Origin: a virus | Virus record (IMG/VR): IMGVR_UViG_3300044939_000117 | Coordinates: 1 to 35,812 of that record | Strand: one strand, 5' to 3' | DNA length: 35,812 bases | Shown: piece after piece, positions 5,474-13,915 of the stretch | Layout: each line of letters begins with the position of its first letter | Numbering within the stretch: the stretch's first letter is position 1 | Translations under genes and position numbers: made by a program | The notes under the pieces: generated by a model | What the model was told of the DNA's origin: nothing | Database searches by the model: none | What the model saw: only the letters and a program-made list of their open reading frames with translations

Positions 5474-5941
5474 TCAGAAGAAGTCGACCGCCACTAGCAT
5501 GTCTTCGAGCATGACGCGGTAGCCTGGTGCCCCAACGGTCGTGTCAGCAGGGACGACGACGCCGACGATTTCGTTGCCGCGGCCGATGAATTGCCACGTC
5601 ATGCAGATCTGGGCTGGCGTAAGAGGCTTGCTCGCTAACACGTACTCGATGAGACGTTCAGCGTTATGCAGAGACGCGCTCGCTTGTGCTTTCTTGTCTT
5701 CGTCGACGATGCGCTGAACGATCGATTCGAACTGCGGGTAGCGCGGCGGGAAGCGTTGATGCTCAGTGCGTACTGCTGCAAGCACGCGATCGAGTACTTC
5801 GCGATCGCGAATCGATGAATCGATCAACTCGCACCAGTCGGCGGGTGGCGTTTGTCCAAAGTTCTTGCTGACTGTTTCTGCGCCGTACCACTCGATGAAC
5901 TTTCTCCAGACGTAGCTCGCTTTTGCGCTTACATTCTTCAT
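5474..5941 (-). CDS. Putative replication partner protein (possible lambda-P-like helicase loader)
   Basis: The ATG at 5941 overlaps the initiator stop as ATGA with GAGG upstream; a TTG at 5947 would add two residues. The 155-aa product has an N-terminal helix YVWRKFIEWYG, then PPADWCELIDSS, and FPPRYPQFESIVQRI, similar in spirit to the aromatic-Pro-x-x-F segment of phage replication P-type proteins. No Walker motif is present. Position directly after an O-like initiator in the same operon is the main argument for a helicase-loading role. Confidence in the function is low, in the gene high. Confidence 0.8.
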   Translation of the reverse strand: MKNVSAKASYVWRKFIEWYGAETVSKNFGQTPPADWCELIDSSIRDREVLDRVLAAVRTEHQRFPPRYPQFESIVQRIVDEDKKAQASASLHNAERLIEYVLASKPLTPAQICMTWQFIGRGNEIVGVVVPADTTVGAPGYRVMLEDMLVAVDFF

Positions 5942-7038
5942 TTCCAATCCTCATCGCTGTTGCCAACTGCGGCATCAAGCGCCGCCATCATCGCGGCAAA
6001 GCTTGTGCTGTCGTTTTGCTTTTGCTTCTGCGGAACATCCCACGGCTGACGCCACGGCATATCTCGCGCAGAGAAGAATCTGCCCGGGGTCATCACGTAC
6101 TGCGTGCCCTCGCGTTCTGTCGCGCGAATGTAACGTGCATAACGCTGTGCTGCTTCGAGCAGCGTATCCCAGCTCTCGCCGTTGTCGACGAGCGCGCGGC
6201 AGTAAGCCTCGGCATTGATCCAGTCTTGTCGCCCGGCGAATTTGGGGTAAGCAGCACGAATCCGCTCGAATGCTTCACGTGAAACCTTCGCTTCACGCCT
6301 AACCGCTTCCAGCGACAGAGGCTTGTTAGCAGAGTGTGACTCTGACACACACACGCTCTCACGCGCGCGCGTGCGCGCGCGCGTAGTAGATATATCTATA
6401 TCTTGTATATCTATATCTTGTATATCTTGTGTATATATATTTATATCTTGTGTATTTATATTTATATCTTGTGTATTTATATTATATATATCTATATCTC
6501 TACTAGATATAGACGGCCGATTATGTAAAAAAACCCCTGAATATTGTTCAGGGGTTCTTGCCGACCCCTGAATATTATTCAGGGGTGTACCCCCTGACCC
6601 CTGAATATTATTCAGGGGTGTACCCCCTGACCCCTGAATATTATTCAGGGGTACCCCTGAATATTGTTCAGGGGTGAACGTCGTGCAGGGGTGAATATTA
6701 TTCAGGGGTGAATATTGTTCAGGGGTCGGATTCAGGCTTTGCTCCTTCCCACAATTTGCCGTCTCATCCCCTAAATCCACACGCCAGCTTTCATGCAGCA
6801 GCACGTAATTGCTGCGACGACCAGCACGCTGATCTCGCCGGATGTATCCCTCAGACTCAAGCTTGGCTATACACGCAAGTACTGCCCTATCGGTCAAACA
6901 GCACATGCGAGCGATCGTCGCTACAGACGACGAGCAAATGCCGTCCTCGTTAGCCGCATAGCACAAGGCGATCAACACGAATTTGCGCGTCGCTGACAGC
7001 GGCATGCACCAAGCTTTCTGCATCAGCTCGGCATTCAT
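5938..7038 (-). CDS. Replication initiator, lambda-O-like, containing the origin
   Basis: The 366-aa product begins with a winged helix-turn-helix (about residues 15-75: MPLSATRKFVLIALCYAAN, then SSSVATIARMCCLTDRAVLACIAKLE and GYIRRDQRAGRRSNYVL), the usual DNA-binding part of O-like initiators. A low-complexity middle (TPLNNIQGS/TPEQYS repeats, then DIDI/NINTQD repeats) is simply the translation of the origin iterons and AT-rich tract. The C terminus (about 240-366) is a helical domain with FERIRAAYPKFAGRQDWINAEAYC-like segments, likely for helicase contacts. The start at 7038 has GAAGGAG upstream and overlaps the stop of the HTH gene as ATGA; the frame back to 7158 is spurious. Confidence 0.85.
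   Translation of the reverse strand: MNAELMQKAWCMPLSATRKFVLIALCYAANEDGICSSSVATIARMCCLTDRAVLACIAKLESEGYIRRDQRAGRRSNYVLLHESWRVDLGDETANCGKEQSLNPTPEQYSPLNNIHPCTTFTPEQYSGVPLNNIQGSGGTPLNNIQGSGGTPLNNIQGSARTPEQYSGVFLHNRPSISSRDIDIYNINTQDININTQDINIYTQDIQDIDIQDIDISTTRARTRARESVCVSESHSANKPLSLEAVRREAKVSREAFERIRAAYPKFAGRQDWINAEAYCRALVDNGESWDTLLEAAQRYARYIRATEREGTQYVMTPGRFFSARDMPWRQPWDVPQKQKQNDSTSFAAMMAALDAAVGNSDEDWK
6361..6385. repeat. Alternating purine-pyrimidine (CG)n tract
   Basis: Twenty-five consecutive bases alternate purine and pyrimidine, almost all CG, followed directly by the AT-rich tract. Such sequence is prone to Z-DNA under negative supercoiling. It encodes the RARTRAR segment of the initiator. 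Confidence 0.8.
6386..6511. other. AT-rich tract, probable DNA unwinding element
   Basis: About 125 bases are almost pure A+T apart from a recurring TATATCTTGT motif (five or so copies). It lies between the (CG)n tract and the iterons inside the initiator gene, the layout known from lambda ori, where an AT-rich region next to the iterons melts first. Confidence 0.75.
6534..6725. repeat. Origin iterons: palindromic 21-mers
   Basis: Five complete 21-base units (6534-6554, 6565-6585, 6598-6618, 6631-6651, 6654-6674) have arms CCCCTGAATA and TATTCAGGGG about a central T; in units 1 and 5 one base of the right arm is G. Two partial units with only the right part are at 6692-6708 and 6709-6725. 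Two spacers share TGTACCCCCTGA. Each iteron is itself a palindrome, unlike many non-palindromic iterons, fitting a dimeric winged-helix initiator. This is the likely replication origin. Confidence 0.85.
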
Positions 7039-9386: not shown

Positions 9387-10214
9387 ATGATCTATCACCC
9401 ACACCCAAGCGCATCCCAGGCTATTCGCGCGCTGCTATCACAGCGCGGAAGCGGAGCGCGGGCTTTGCTCGTGACTGGCGCACCCGGCACTGGCAAAACG
9501 GCGCTCGCGGAGCACATCGCGCGTGAGCATGGAGCGCCGTTCTTCTATGCCCTGCTCCACTCGTGGAGCGGATCTGATGACCTCTTTGCAGGGGTCAACG
9601 TTCCAGCGGCCGTGGTCGGTGATGCCGAGCGTGTCCACCAGCCCGGCGTGCTGGCGCTGGTTGCCGAAGCTAGCCACAAGCACTCGCTCGTCGTGCTGTG
9701 TTTGGACGAGCTAGACAAAGCACCAGACAGCGTTGAAGCACTGCTGCTCGATTGGCTCCAGTCGGGGCGCGTACCAGTACGCCCTGGTGAGCACCAGACC
9801 ACCAGGCTGGACCGTGTGTTGGTGGTAATCACCAGCAACGGAGCTCGCCCGCACACTGACGCCCTCCTGCGCCGTTGCCGACGGCTGCGCATGCCGCCGA
9901 TGGCAGAGGACCTCCGCGTGCGTCTTGCACATGAGCGTAGCGGCGCACCAGCCGGTGTGGTGCGGCTGCTCGATCGCGCATGCCAGCTCGTCGCTCGAGC
10001 GGAAGGCAACGATGCCCTCTCGCTCCAGGAAATCGCCCATGCTTGCCGCGAGGCATGGGAAGTGGCCGCCTCGGCCGAGGAAGTGGCCGAAGTGCTGCGC
10101 GCTTGGGCCGCGCGGACAGACGAAGGGGCGGCCTCTGTCTCAACCCCAGAAGTTCGCCGTCTGGTGGTGGCAATCTGGGGCGAGATCATGGCCGCGCGTC
10201 GGAGGGCGGCATGA
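9387..10214 (+). CDS. MoxR-type AAA+ ATPase
   Basis: The 275-aa product has Walker A GAPGTGKT (31-38), Walker B VVLCLDELDKA (D107, E108), sensor 1 ITSN (N151) and arginines LLRRCRRL (162-166) as likely arginine finger. The order and the helical lid fit the MoxR/CobS group, which remodel protein complexes together with a VWA partner, usually encoded next door, as here. The start has GAGGAGG 5 bases upstream. Its base composition is visibly more G+C-rich than the recombination genes before it, hinting at separate acquisition. Which client it acts on cannot be told from sequence. Confidence 0.9.
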   Translation: MIYHPHPSASQAIRALLSQRGSGARALLVTGAPGTGKTALAEHIAREHGAPFFYALLHSWSGSDDLFAGVNVPAAVVGDAERVHQPGVLALVAEASHKHSLVVLCLDELDKAPDSVEALLLDWLQSGRVPVRPGEHQTTRLDRVLVVITSNGARPHTDALLRRCRRLRMPPMAEDLRVRLAHERSGAPAGVVRLLDRACQLVARAEGNDALSLQEIAHACREAWEVAASAEEVAEVLRAWAARTDEGAASVSTPEVRRLVVAIWGEIMAARRRAA

Positions 10215-11662
10215 CGTCCGTCACTATGCCTATCACTTTACGCGACGTGCGCAGAGCGTGCGTGTGCACCAGCGCGCGCTCTGCTGCTGTTCTCGCTGCC
10301 ACTGCGGATAGCTTGCGCGCACTAGGCGCGCATGATGCAGCCGGCATTGACCAGCTCATCAACCGCCTTGGAGCCGGTTACATCGTCATCAACCGCCCTG
10401 TCGCAAGCCGACAGGATCACGTCATCAACGACGATATGGTCGTAAGCGCGCCCGTAGGCGTCGAAAACGCCGACGCCCACGGCGGCGACGGCAACAGCGG
10501 CGAGATGGATCACCGCGCCGATACCTCTGCGACAGAAAAAAGGGATGACTGCGATAGCGCCGCGTGCGACGCTATCGCAGACACGCCCGACGGCACGCCC
10601 GAAGAAGGCGCTGCAACTGACTGCAATAATGCAGGCAGCCAGGCCGATACTGACGGCGCTTCTACCCGCGAGGGAGGAGAGATGCCCACTTGCCAGGGCA
10701 CATGTGGAGGCGACGAGCCGACCAGGGAGATGGGCTCCCAACTGCCTACAACACAGACCGACGTCGACAAAGGGACTGCTGGCGACAGGCTCTCGGCTTC
10801 GGATAACGGCACTGATTGTAGGCAGCTCACGAGCGACGCCACAGCCCAAGCACATGGCGAATCGCAGTCCTTCGGCTTGGCCGAAGTGGGCGCTGCGAGC
10901 GGTTCCGAATTTTCGGAGTCTGTAGCCAACGTGGACGCCGAGTCACACGGTGCTGTTCTTAATGACGGCGGACAATATCTGTCCGCCCCAATCATTTTGC
11001 GCGCTCGCGAACAGCGAGCTATGCGTGAAACGGCATACTTATTACGCCGTCTCATTGAAAATGAGATCGGCTCGCAAGGCCGAGAAACGCCCCGTGTTAA
11101 TGGGCGTACCTTGATGCGCGAGATTGTTTCGCGTCGCTGCGCAATTGCGCGCGCACGACGGCGCGAAGCTGACATGCGCGAGCTGATCATTGCTGTCGAC
11201 GATTCAGGGTCGTGCGCAGCAGTCGTAAATACTTTATATTCTGTAGCACTTGCCATCGCTCATTCGCTGCCGAGCGGTAAGGCAAGCGTGCTACTGCATA
11301 GCAACGGCTATTGCGTACAAATAGCTGACAACGCGCCATGTTCACCATGGTTGAAAAAAGAAATCGAGGGAAGATCTCGACTGCTCGCTCGCCATTACTA
11401 CGCTGTAAGCCAGCAAGAGGCCAGTGCAGAAATTTGGCGCGCTATCGCTAAGCGACGCCCTGGACTTGTCCTTGCAATGGGCGATCACGACGCCGACTGG
11501 GCGCTCGAAATCTTACGCGATGCCGGAAACAGCCCTATCGCAATACACCATCACGCTGTCAGCCCGAACTATGGCGGCGTGCGCAGGATCGGCCCAGTGC
11601 GCGATGCGATGAGCGCTGCGCAGGCGCTTAGTGCATTTGTTAGGAGGAACAAAAGGAGCTAA
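10211..11662 (+). CDS. VWA-domain partner protein with long acidic linker (CobT-like)
   Basis: The 483-aa product overlaps the ATPase stop as ATGA, with GGAGG upstream. Residues 1-75 are a small folded N-terminal region; about 85-260 are low-complexity, rich in Asp, Glu, Gly, Ser and Thr with scattered Cys; about 260-320 are basic and helical; and a VWA domain runs from about 322 to the end, with MIDAS D330-x-S332-x-S334 in AVDDSGSC and a later GDHDADW acidic site. N-domain, acidic linker and C-terminal VWA is the plan of CobT and BchD-like partners of AAA+ chelatase and MoxR machines. No cobalamin genes are present, so metal insertion is not supported; a remodelling or host-interaction role is open. 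Confidence 0.85.
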   Translation: MTSVTMPITLRDVRRACVCTSARSAAVLAATADSLRALGAHDAAGIDQLINRLGAGYIVINRPVASRQDHVINDDMVVSAPVGVENADAHGGDGNSGEMDHRADTSATEKRDDCDSAACDAIADTPDGTPEEGAATDCNNAGSQADTDGASTREGGEMPTCQGTCGGDEPTREMGSQLPTTQTDVDKGTAGDRLSASDNGTDCRQLTSDATAQAHGESQSFGLAEVGAASGSEFSESVANVDAESHGAVLNDGGQYLSAPIILRAREQRAMRETAYLLRRLIENEIGSQGRETPRVNGRTLMREIVSRRCAIARARRREADMRELIIAVDDSGSCAAVVNTLYSVALAIAHSLPSGKASVLLHSNGYCVQIADNAPCSPWLKKEIEGRSRLLARHYYAVSQQEASAEIWRAIAKRRPGLVLAMGDHDADWALEILRDAGNSPIAIHHHAVSPNYGGVRRIGPVRDAMSAAQALSAFVRRNKRS

Positions 11663-11665
11663 GCC

Positions 11666-11833
11666 ATGCTATACGAAAATCAGACAGAAGCTCCATCTCA
11701 AGAGCCTTGCGCTTACTGCATGGCGCGTCCGACATGGGCTGTTACTTGGACAGCCGATGGACAACAAAATACGCTGTTTCTATGCATATCGTGCGATGAG
11801 CGCGAAATTAAAGAAATCGAAAATGACGAATGA
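11666..11833 (+). CDS. Small double-CxxC zinc-finger protein, 55 aa
   Basis: The ATG at 11666 follows AAAGGAG, overlapping the end of the VWA gene by spacing of 3 bases from its stop. The product has CAYC (15-18) and CISC (42-45), well spaced for one zinc ribbon, with WAVTWTADGQQNTLFL strands between and an acidic tail (REIKEIENDE). It is too short for common ORF cut-offs. Its tight coupling to the MoxR-VWA pair suggests it is a third component of that system. Confidence 0.75.
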   Translation: MLYENQTEAPSQEPCAYCMARPTWAVTWTADGQQNTLFLCISCDEREIKEIENDE

Positions 11834-12643: not shown

Positions 12644-13282
12644 TCACTCTATAAGATAAATTGCAGGGCAAGGGCCCGTGTCATTTGTCAACTCTGTCGG
12701 AGCAGTGATAGGCAGCGTTGACCCGGACCCTGATGCATATAGATGGCTGATAACTGTCGTCGCACCTAACGTACGGCCTAACGCCGTTTGCACAGCCTCA
12801 ATAGGCAACGCACGTATAGTTGCGGCTGCCGAGCATATCAATGATGCCCAGTAGAGCACGCCAGGTTGAAGGGTTAATGACAAGTATCCGGTCTTATCGC
12901 CGGTCGTTCCTGTGTCTCTCACATTGTGGATCTGAGCAACTCGAGTCCCCGGGGTATCATTACCGTTAACTTGCGTGTTGTTGTAAATGCCGAAATTAGC
13001 CGCTCCCGCGGTAGCTGTTGTCACACTAATACGCAAAGCAGAAAGCACAGTCTGTCGCGGTACGGCGAGCGGCACGAAATATTGCCGCGACGGCGTTAAC
13101 GCCAGTGTCGTAAGTGGTGCGCCTGCCATATCCCCAACGATCTTAGGTGTAGCTAATCGTTTTGGATATGCCATCCCTAAATAATTCGGCGGCGAACCAC
13201 CGCCACTACCGGGTAGCGTGTCGGTAGGACGCAGTTCCTCGATGCGCCCGTGATAAATGCAGAGCGGCCGTTTTTCTGCCAT
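12644..13282 (-). CDS. Fibre-like protein, tandem copy 2
   Basis: The 212-aa product and that of 13286-13915 are paralogues over their entire length, sharing MAEKRPLC at the start, LP.LTASRQYFVPL-like and LRALPIEAVQTALGR-like blocks, and a C terminus S.G.TLP......CPAIYL.E. The content (Gly, Thr, Ser, beta-rich, no helices) suits a trimeric fibre or receptor-binding head. It is preceded by its copy with 3 bases between. No enzymatic motif is evident. Likely role: host recognition at the virion surface, by position between tail tip and lysis genes. Confidence 0.75.
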   Translation of the reverse strand: MAEKRPLCIYHGRIEELRPTDTLPGSGGGSPPNYLGMAYPKRLATPKIVGDMAGAPLTTLALTPSRQYFVPLAVPRQTVLSALRISVTTATAGAANFGIYNNTQVNGNDTPGTRVAQIHNVRDTGTTGDKTGYLSLTLQPGVLYWASLICSAAATIRALPIEAVQTALGRTLGATTVISHLYASGSGSTLPITAPTELTNDTGPCPAIYLIE

Positions 13283-13285
13283 GGC

Positions 13286-13915
13286 CTACTCAAGCAGATA
13301 AATCGCAGGGCAAGAGTTCGTGCCGCCCGATATCGATATCGGAGCTGGATTCGGCAGTGTCGATCCGGATCCGTTTGCATACAGATAGCTAATGACGGCA
13401 GTGGTGTTCGCCGCACGGCCTAACGCCGTCTGCACCGACTCAACAGGCAGCGCACGTACAGTTGCGGCCGCCGAGCATATCAGCGAGATCCAGTAGAGCG
13501 TTGCGGGTTGGAGGGTAAATGACAACGACCCAGTTTTATCTCCTGTCGTTCCAGTATCCAGCTTCGCGCTAATCTGGATGAGTAGACTTCCCGGCGCATC
13601 ATCATTGTAGCTTATCGTGTTGCCATAAATGCCGAGATTAGCCTGCCCAGAGGAAGCTGTTGTTACACTCAAGCCCAGCCCAGAGAGTACAACTTGCCGC
13701 GGGACAACAAGCGGCACGAAATATTGCCGCGACGCCGTCAGTGCAACAGTCGTAAGCGCTGACCCTGACGTATCGCCTACGATTTTCGGCGATGACAATC
13801 GTTTTGGATACGGCAACCCTAAATTCGGCAGAGACCCACCGCCAGGCAGTGTGTCCTCTGCGCGCAATTCCTCTGCGCGCCCGTTATATAGGCACAATGG
13901 ACGCTTTTCGGCCAT
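13286..13915 (-). CDS. Fibre-like protein, tandem copy 1
   Basis: The 209-aa product is the paralogue of 12644-13282. Divergence is clustered in loops such as YNNTQVNGNDTP versus YGNTISYNDDAP and near SGSTLPNPAP, while the strands around SRQYFVPL, ALPVESVQTALGR and the last ten residues are kept. This pattern fits divergence of surface loops for different receptors; it is a judgement by eye. Nine bases separate it from the preceding gene. Confidence 0.75.
   Translation of the reverse strand: MAEKRPLCLYNGRAEELRAEDTLPGGGSLPNLGLPYPKRLSSPKIVGDTSGSALTTVALTASRQYFVPLVVPRQVVLSGLGLSVTTASSGQANLGIYGNTISYNDDAPGSLLIQISAKLDTGTTGDKTGSLSFTLQPATLYWISLICSAAATVRALPVESVQTALGRAANTTAVISYLYANGSGSTLPNPAPISISGGTNSCPAIYLLE

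Follow-up and report, generated by a model that had tools for sequence, protein, structure and literature searches.

Three adjacent genes of a virus, encoding a MoxR-type ATPase, a VWA protein and a small zinc protein, are a well-delimited new variant of the MoxR-VWA systems, accessory and mobile. The reading that we prefer, with a probability of roughly one half, is that the trio encodes an accessory machine for protein remodelling, of the NorQ/NorD and CbbQ/CbbO kind and passed on horizontally, the client of which would most likely be a protein of the host or of a competing element. The trio is found in a 35.8-kb IMG/VR virus record of a siphovirus-like phage, and the whole stretch of 35,812 nucleotides is here called the window. 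Among its genes are those for a lambda GpA-type terminase, an HK97-like major head/protease protein, an O-like replication initiator, RusA, Erf, a RecE/YqaJ-type exonuclease and SSB. The O-like initiator gene (5941-7038, minus strand) has tandem repeats (TPEQYS and PLNNIQGSGG units), which may be origin iterons.

The trio is located on the plus strand, 3' of the Erf, exonuclease and SSB genes and after a 275-bp gap, and the late genes converge on it from the opposite strand (Table 1). No sigma-70-like promoter for the trio was found in a simple scan. The coupling of the three genes noticed in the sequence-only reading is exact: the MoxR stop and the VWA start overlap in ATGA (10211-10214), and the ATG of the zinc gene comes 3 bases after the VWA stop. 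The same reading had the trio richer in G+C than its neighbours, which is true of MoxR and the first half of the VWA gene (0.63-0.65) and not of the zinc gene.

Table 1. Features of the MoxR-VWA-zinc trio, with positions in the window.
Feature	Position	Strand	Basis
Gene 1: MoxR-type AAA+ ATPase, 275 aa	9387..10214	+	Pfam AAA_5, AlphaFold, PDB matches
Walker A GAPGTGKT, aa 31-38	9477..9500	+	G-P-G-GKT invariant in 13 relatives
Walker B CLDELDK, aa 105-111	9699..9719	+	LDE-DK invariant in 13 relatives
Gene 2: putative VWA adaptor protein, 483 aa	10211..11662	+	VWA_CoxE matches in relatives
N-terminal helical domain of VWA protein, aa 8-60	10232..10390	+	three predicted helices, ITLRDVRR-type motif
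Acidic disordered linker, aa 62-262	10394..10996	+	pLDDT <50; silent-site identity raised in 4/6 pairwise comparisons
Linker motif HGGDGNSGE, aa 90-98	10478..10504	+	exact in 9/14 aligned VWA proteins; also exact in MAG contig L142
Hairpin-forming stretch in linker-coding DNA	10542..10588	+	MFE z -4.3 vs synonymous recoding; covarying pairs
VWA-like domain, aa 325-482; DDSGS aa 330-334, GD 424-425	11183..11656	+	strand-helix order, invariant residues
Gene 3: CxxC...CxxC zinc protein, 55 aa	11666..11833	+	conserved in 6 other contigs

The MoxR protein matched Pfam AAA_5 with 53.8 bits (cut-off 22), and the model was also hit in all 13 relatives. Walker A, Walker B and the sensor-1 Asn vary little or not at all among 13 family members, in line with the intact Walker motifs read from the sequence, and the adjoining VWA partner is a further feature expected of a MoxR AAA+ protein. 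The gene is under purifying selection; its dN/dS of 0.07-0.11, together with homologous pairs in at least 14 contigs or records, excludes a chance origin. The AlphaFold model has high confidence (pLDDT 87.7), and Foldseek matched it best in the PDB to NorQ hexamers, NorQD complexes and CbbQ2 (E 1.5e-12 to NorQ 9qh4; AfCbbQ2 6l1q also among the best). By analogy with these, the protein would form a hexamer driven by ATP. Among the best 25 of 49 NCBIfam matches the first was MadB (34.9 bits, far under its cut-off), and bpMoxR scored 19.8 bits against a cut-off of 27. Two MoxR copies both end near residue 142-150, ahead of sensor 1 (L005:8001-8423 and L109:357-779), and no convincing remainder or VWA gene was found there.

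Since annotations of AAA-VWA pairs as cobST-like are widespread among tailed viruses (PMC8651126), the trio might be taken for a viral CobS/CobT cobalt chelatase which boosts cobalamin synthesis of the host. We regard this as very improbable, however: CobS is not in the best 25 of the 49 NCBIfam matches of MoxR, the VWA protein has no NCBIfam match, the nearest folds are NorQ and CbbQ, and neither the ORF list nor the window proteins that were scanned showed CobN or another cobalamin gene. The doubt already voiced about a chelatase is thus borne out, as no CobS/CobT-specific match was returned among the matches listed, and the label "CobT-like" given earlier to the VWA protein is backed by no family model.

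Peptide patterns, together with the linker motif described below, were used to gather close relatives of MoxR from viral contigs. Their MoxR proteins are 76-89% (L002, L003, L004, L093, L094, L119), 41-44% (L097, L107, L108, L115) or 33-35% identical to that of the window, the last group consisting of L098, L099 and the plasmids pGMOR1 of Gloeobacter morelensis (L100) and pTHEAM01 of Thermovibrio ammonificans (L101). Wherever the sequence extends far enough, MoxR is followed by a VWA gene, and most of these pairs have the 4-nt overlap of the window pair. The pair is also present in a metagenome-assembled contig of Pseudomonadota (L142), which was the only match at E <= 1e-18 in 398 Pseudomonadota genomes; 301 cyanobacterial genomes gave one weak, generic MoxR match only, and tblastn of the VWA proteins found nothing in 50,697 phage records. 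A scan of genome contigs with the first MoxR alignment was discarded, the matches being mostly FtsH-like ATPases. As far as sampled, the family is rare and mainly carried by mobile elements.

The VWA_CoxE score of the VWA protein (16.7 bits) is below the Pfam cut-off of 26.4, and the model was matched in 8 of 12 relatives (best E 1.5e-4). Residues D330, S332, S334, C335, W409, G424 and D425 of the VWA domain are invariant in the 12 relatives. The MIDAS motif had been described as intact, and DxSxS and the late Asp are indeed invariant, but the stretch ahead of the invariant Trp has no conserved Thr, and the complete DxSxS-T-D motif is therefore lacking. The predicted model is weak (mean pLDDT 50.7), and a Foldseek search with this poor model gave no significant match. 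The order of alternating strands and helices in the VWA domain fits a VWA fold, and a predicted hairpin at aa 383-395 could be a short finger. The N-terminal helices have pLDDT values mostly of 63-80, and their ITLRDVRR-type motif recurs in most relatives. The long linker proved to be as acidic as first described (20% D+E, 5% K+R), and aa 62-262 are predicted to be disordered.

Within the linker, HGGDGNSGE is altered in pGMOR1 (HGGNSSSGE) and pTHEAM01 (HGGESQANE) and missing in L097, L099 and L108 among the aligned VWA proteins, and it is kept in L098, L107 and L115 despite MoxR proteins only 33-44% identical to that of the window. A pattern scan of the viral contigs returned nine contigs, eight of which belong to the MoxR-VWA family; the ninth match (L116) lies out of frame inside a portal-like gene and is due to chance. 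The motif is nearly diagnostic of the family. Its codons differ at silent sites, so the protein motif itself is selected, and it is a candidate site for binding of the client or of MoxR.

Except for the trio, the phages carrying it have little or nothing in common. According to tblastn with all window ORFs, G001, G006 and G007 have nothing but the trio in common with the window, and G002 and G016 additionally some tail, fibre or exonuclease genes. In all-against-all clustering, MoxR and VWA were the only clusters present in all or nearly all records, the others occurring in four at most. The trio being all that the window and the first three contigs share, and MoxR and VWA the only common clusters, no constant phage-encoded client is seen among the clusters common to the contigs. 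The G+C content is in keeping with lateral arrival: the window phage has 54% G+C with a G+C-rich MoxR gene and linker, and L002, L003, L094 and L119 are in DNA of 63-65% G+C. In L098 the pair is inserted like a moron, in opposite orientation, between lambda gpI-like and gpJ-like tail genes. DNA methyltransferase-like genes adjoin the pair or its remnant in several contigs (L109:947-1588, L100:6655-7326, L126:12182-12718).

Because the trio follows the Erf, exonuclease and SSB genes in the window, a client in DNA metabolism is possible, and the trio could remodel the complex with which the phage itself recombines or replicates its DNA (Erf, RecE/YqaJ-like exonuclease, SSB) and thereby aid early DNA metabolism. 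A related exonuclease cluster does occur in four trio-bearing contigs, and in G002 it is closely 3' of the trio. Nevertheless, we consider this role unlikely, as MoxR and VWA are the sole clusters common to the contigs, the divergent members are without that exonuclease in the DNA fetched, the L098 pair is among tail genes and the pair is also found on plasmids.

A close relative of the window phage, G005, has lost most of the system. Its terminase is 73% identical to that of the window, many tail genes 58-87% and the head proteins about 30%, while MoxR is gone, the VWA gene is cut to a 66-aa remnant and the zinc gene is intact; an ISL3-like transposase gene is about 1 kb upstream of the remnant and the zinc gene. 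Loss of MoxR and most of VWA in this relative, and the little that trio-bearing phages otherwise share, make the cassette accessory. It has been described or proposed for other MoxR-VWA pairs, in jumbo phages and in Acidianus two-tailed virus, that they are chaperones of virion assembly or maturation (PMC7824862), and virion maturation was among the roles suggested from the window sequence. For the present pair such a role is disfavoured and in our opinion highly improbable: G005 keeps the homologous terminase and most tail genes without MoxR and most of VWA, the trio is outside the structural operon, and plasmids also carry the pair. The evidence fits an accessory cassette gained laterally and speaks against virion assembly.

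Another contig, L146, has about 29 codons of the MoxR start followed by an intact zinc gene, from which it follows that the pair was deleted. The deletions in L146:1983-2290 and L126:12705-13126 are distinct, and both have spared the zinc gene, which could protect against the pair or outlive it. Two further regions of the window were noted in passing. Positions 921-1653 are of low complexity and rich in repeats, with long ORFs overlapping on both strands, and a similar ORF segment is present in G005 (L126:6690-6905). At 12644-13915 there are adjacent fibre-like paralogues (212 and 209 aa), both of which match a single G005 site.

The 55-aa zinc gene is real, as had been supposed from the sequence, and is conserved in 7 contigs. 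It is directly 3' of the VWA gene in the window, L002, L003, L093, L094 and L119 and follows the VWA remnant in G005, that is, in 7/7 window-clade contigs with enough sequence, and the pattern EPCAYC(G/M)ARPTW...LC..CD is kept at this place in the six other contigs. A scan of all viral contigs with a degenerate PCAYCGARPTWP pattern matched no contig beyond the six already known, and a relaxed search added one, L146. Among 2.9 million viral contigs, the gene was seen only beside the MoxR-VWA pair or its remnants. Since the three genes are also contiguous in all related contigs in which this region is covered, they can be regarded as one system, as proposed earlier. Longer versions of the protein have a second CxxC...CxxC unit and resemble a double zinc ribbon, under the Pfam cut-off. 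In L098, L099 and pGMOR1, a different conserved gene is in the third place of the neighbourhood, which makes the third gene clade-specific and the MoxR-VWA pair the core. This 126-150 aa family follows the pair in the Gloeobacter-like clade and is without Pfam match (L098:10972-11379, L099:5058-5435, L100:10390-10839).

With NorQ as the closest fold and a CxxC...CxxC partner constant in one clade, the trio might build the metal centre of a specific host or phage metalloenzyme in the NorQD manner, the zinc protein being the metal carrier. We find this rather improbable, given that no metalloenzyme gene is common to the contigs and that the divergent clades lack the zinc protein, which also persists where the pair has been lost.

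In our preferred reading of the trio as a remodelling machine, a NorQD-like way of working is the most likely one, because NorQ and CbbQ are the nearest solved structures. In NorQD, a VWA finger enters the pore, contact with the ring is made by the C-terminus, and the linker joining the N-terminal domain to VWA is twisted and essential for remodelling (PMC13036017). We infer that this layout holds for the window pair. MoxR would be an ATP-driven hexamer and the VWA protein its adaptor, with the VWA domain gripping the MoxR ring, the client being held through the N-terminal helical domain and the HGGDGNSGE motif of the linker. Using ATP, the adaptor would twist the client open, and the zinc protein may be a dedicated helper or regulator in the window clade. 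The cassette would act in host takeover or superinfection exclusion, by way of a client of the host or of a competing element. A takeover or defence role, also raised in the sequence-only reading, is possible. NorD needs its MIDAS residues (PMC9976466), and as the MIDAS Thr is missing in the window protein, client binding may differ from that of NorD. This missing Thr, the low-confidence VWA model without structural match, the position of the trio behind the Erf, exonuclease and SSB genes and the lack of a PADLOC match count against our explanation; in PADLOC, the trio had no specific component match and only weak P-loop matches to IetA and others.

An unexpected finding, on moderate evidence, concerns the linker-coding region. 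At fourfold-degenerate sites the linker was more identical than the VWA domain in 4/6 pairwise comparisons (e.g., 52/73 vs 23/81, Fisher p 1.6e-7, and 43/66 vs 26/95, p 2.3e-6), and 2/6 showed no difference. The consensus fold of the linkers of the window, L002 and L003, a structure derived from the same alignment on which it is scored and from few sequences, has 24 doubly changed pairs vs 9.0 (sd 2.7) in column shuffles, and three control regions of equal length reached z 0.3-0.7; in the second clade the linker gave z 2.0 and the controls negative values. A hairpin just after HGGDGNSGE has 87.7% of cells paired, with covarying pairs, in 6 sequences. It beats synonymous recoding in the window, L093, L094, L119, L142 and pTHEAM01. 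In L002 it does so weakly, and L003, L098, L100, L107 and L115 show no clear difference. For the VWA gene the hairpin is not unusually stable (rank 61 of 736 windows), and the stability of the linker RNA as a whole is ordinary (z -3.4, compared with -3.6 in the C-terminal region), which leaves covariation and silent-site conservation as the only evidence of structure. Either could be mimicked by template switching at quasi-palindromes or by recent recombination of the linker. We therefore suggest only tentatively, as a somewhat doubtful possibility, that the linker DNA or mRNA carries conserved secondary structure, including this hairpin, selected independently of the protein. It might, for example, cause a translation pause that sets the MoxR:VWA ratio, or be a regulatory or recombination element that assists movement of the cassette. 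If true, the linker, supposedly a mere spacer, would bear a second layer of information. A programmed frameshift was rejected, A AAA AAG before the window hairpin being out of phase and missing in L003, and so was an overlapping gene, no alternative frame being stop-free in all members; an Rfam search of the linker gave no match. In pTHEAM01 the linker-coding DNA has a 22-bp hairpin some 50 nt past the degenerate motif, a location similar to that of the window hairpin (L101:8828-10450).

The usual labels for phage MoxR-VWA pairs are cobalt chelatase and virion chaperone, neither of which suits the window family. This family is a mobile accessory block, carried by phages and plasmids whose hosts are very different and findable by a short linker motif, and it offers a compact system for studying how phages use AAA+/VWA remodellers, with the linker motif and the N-terminal domain as direct handles for finding the client. 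Among the known systems, it shares with NorQ/NorD the MoxR fold, the operon pair and the order of N-terminal domain, disordered linker and VWA domain, but identity is about 17%, the MIDAS Thr is lost, the N-terminal domain is much smaller, and there is an extra zinc gene and a linker motif; nitric oxide reductase genes were not seen among window ORFs or common clusters. With the Rubisco activase CbbQ/CbbO it has the fold (6l1q) and the MoxR-VWA pairing in common, whereas there are no Rubisco genes and sequence identity is low. Pairs annotated as CobS/CobT in tailed viruses of archaea and bacteria likewise have an AAA+ gene adjoining a VWA gene, and differ in that the window proteins have no CobS/CobT-specific match among those listed and the VWA protein none by tblastn in the 50,697 phage records. 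The ternary conflict systems also combine MoxR and vWA with a third component, and there is weak bpMoxR similarity, but this is under the cut-off and the third gene of the window encodes a small zinc protein instead of VMAP, iSTAND, FtsH or a beta-propeller. Finally, the MoxR-vWA-peptidase systems of jumbo-phage group 2.2 and p618/p892 of ATV are virus-encoded MoxR-vWA couples too; in the window system no peptidase domain was found, and its type of pair is dispensable in a relative which keeps related packaging and tail genes.
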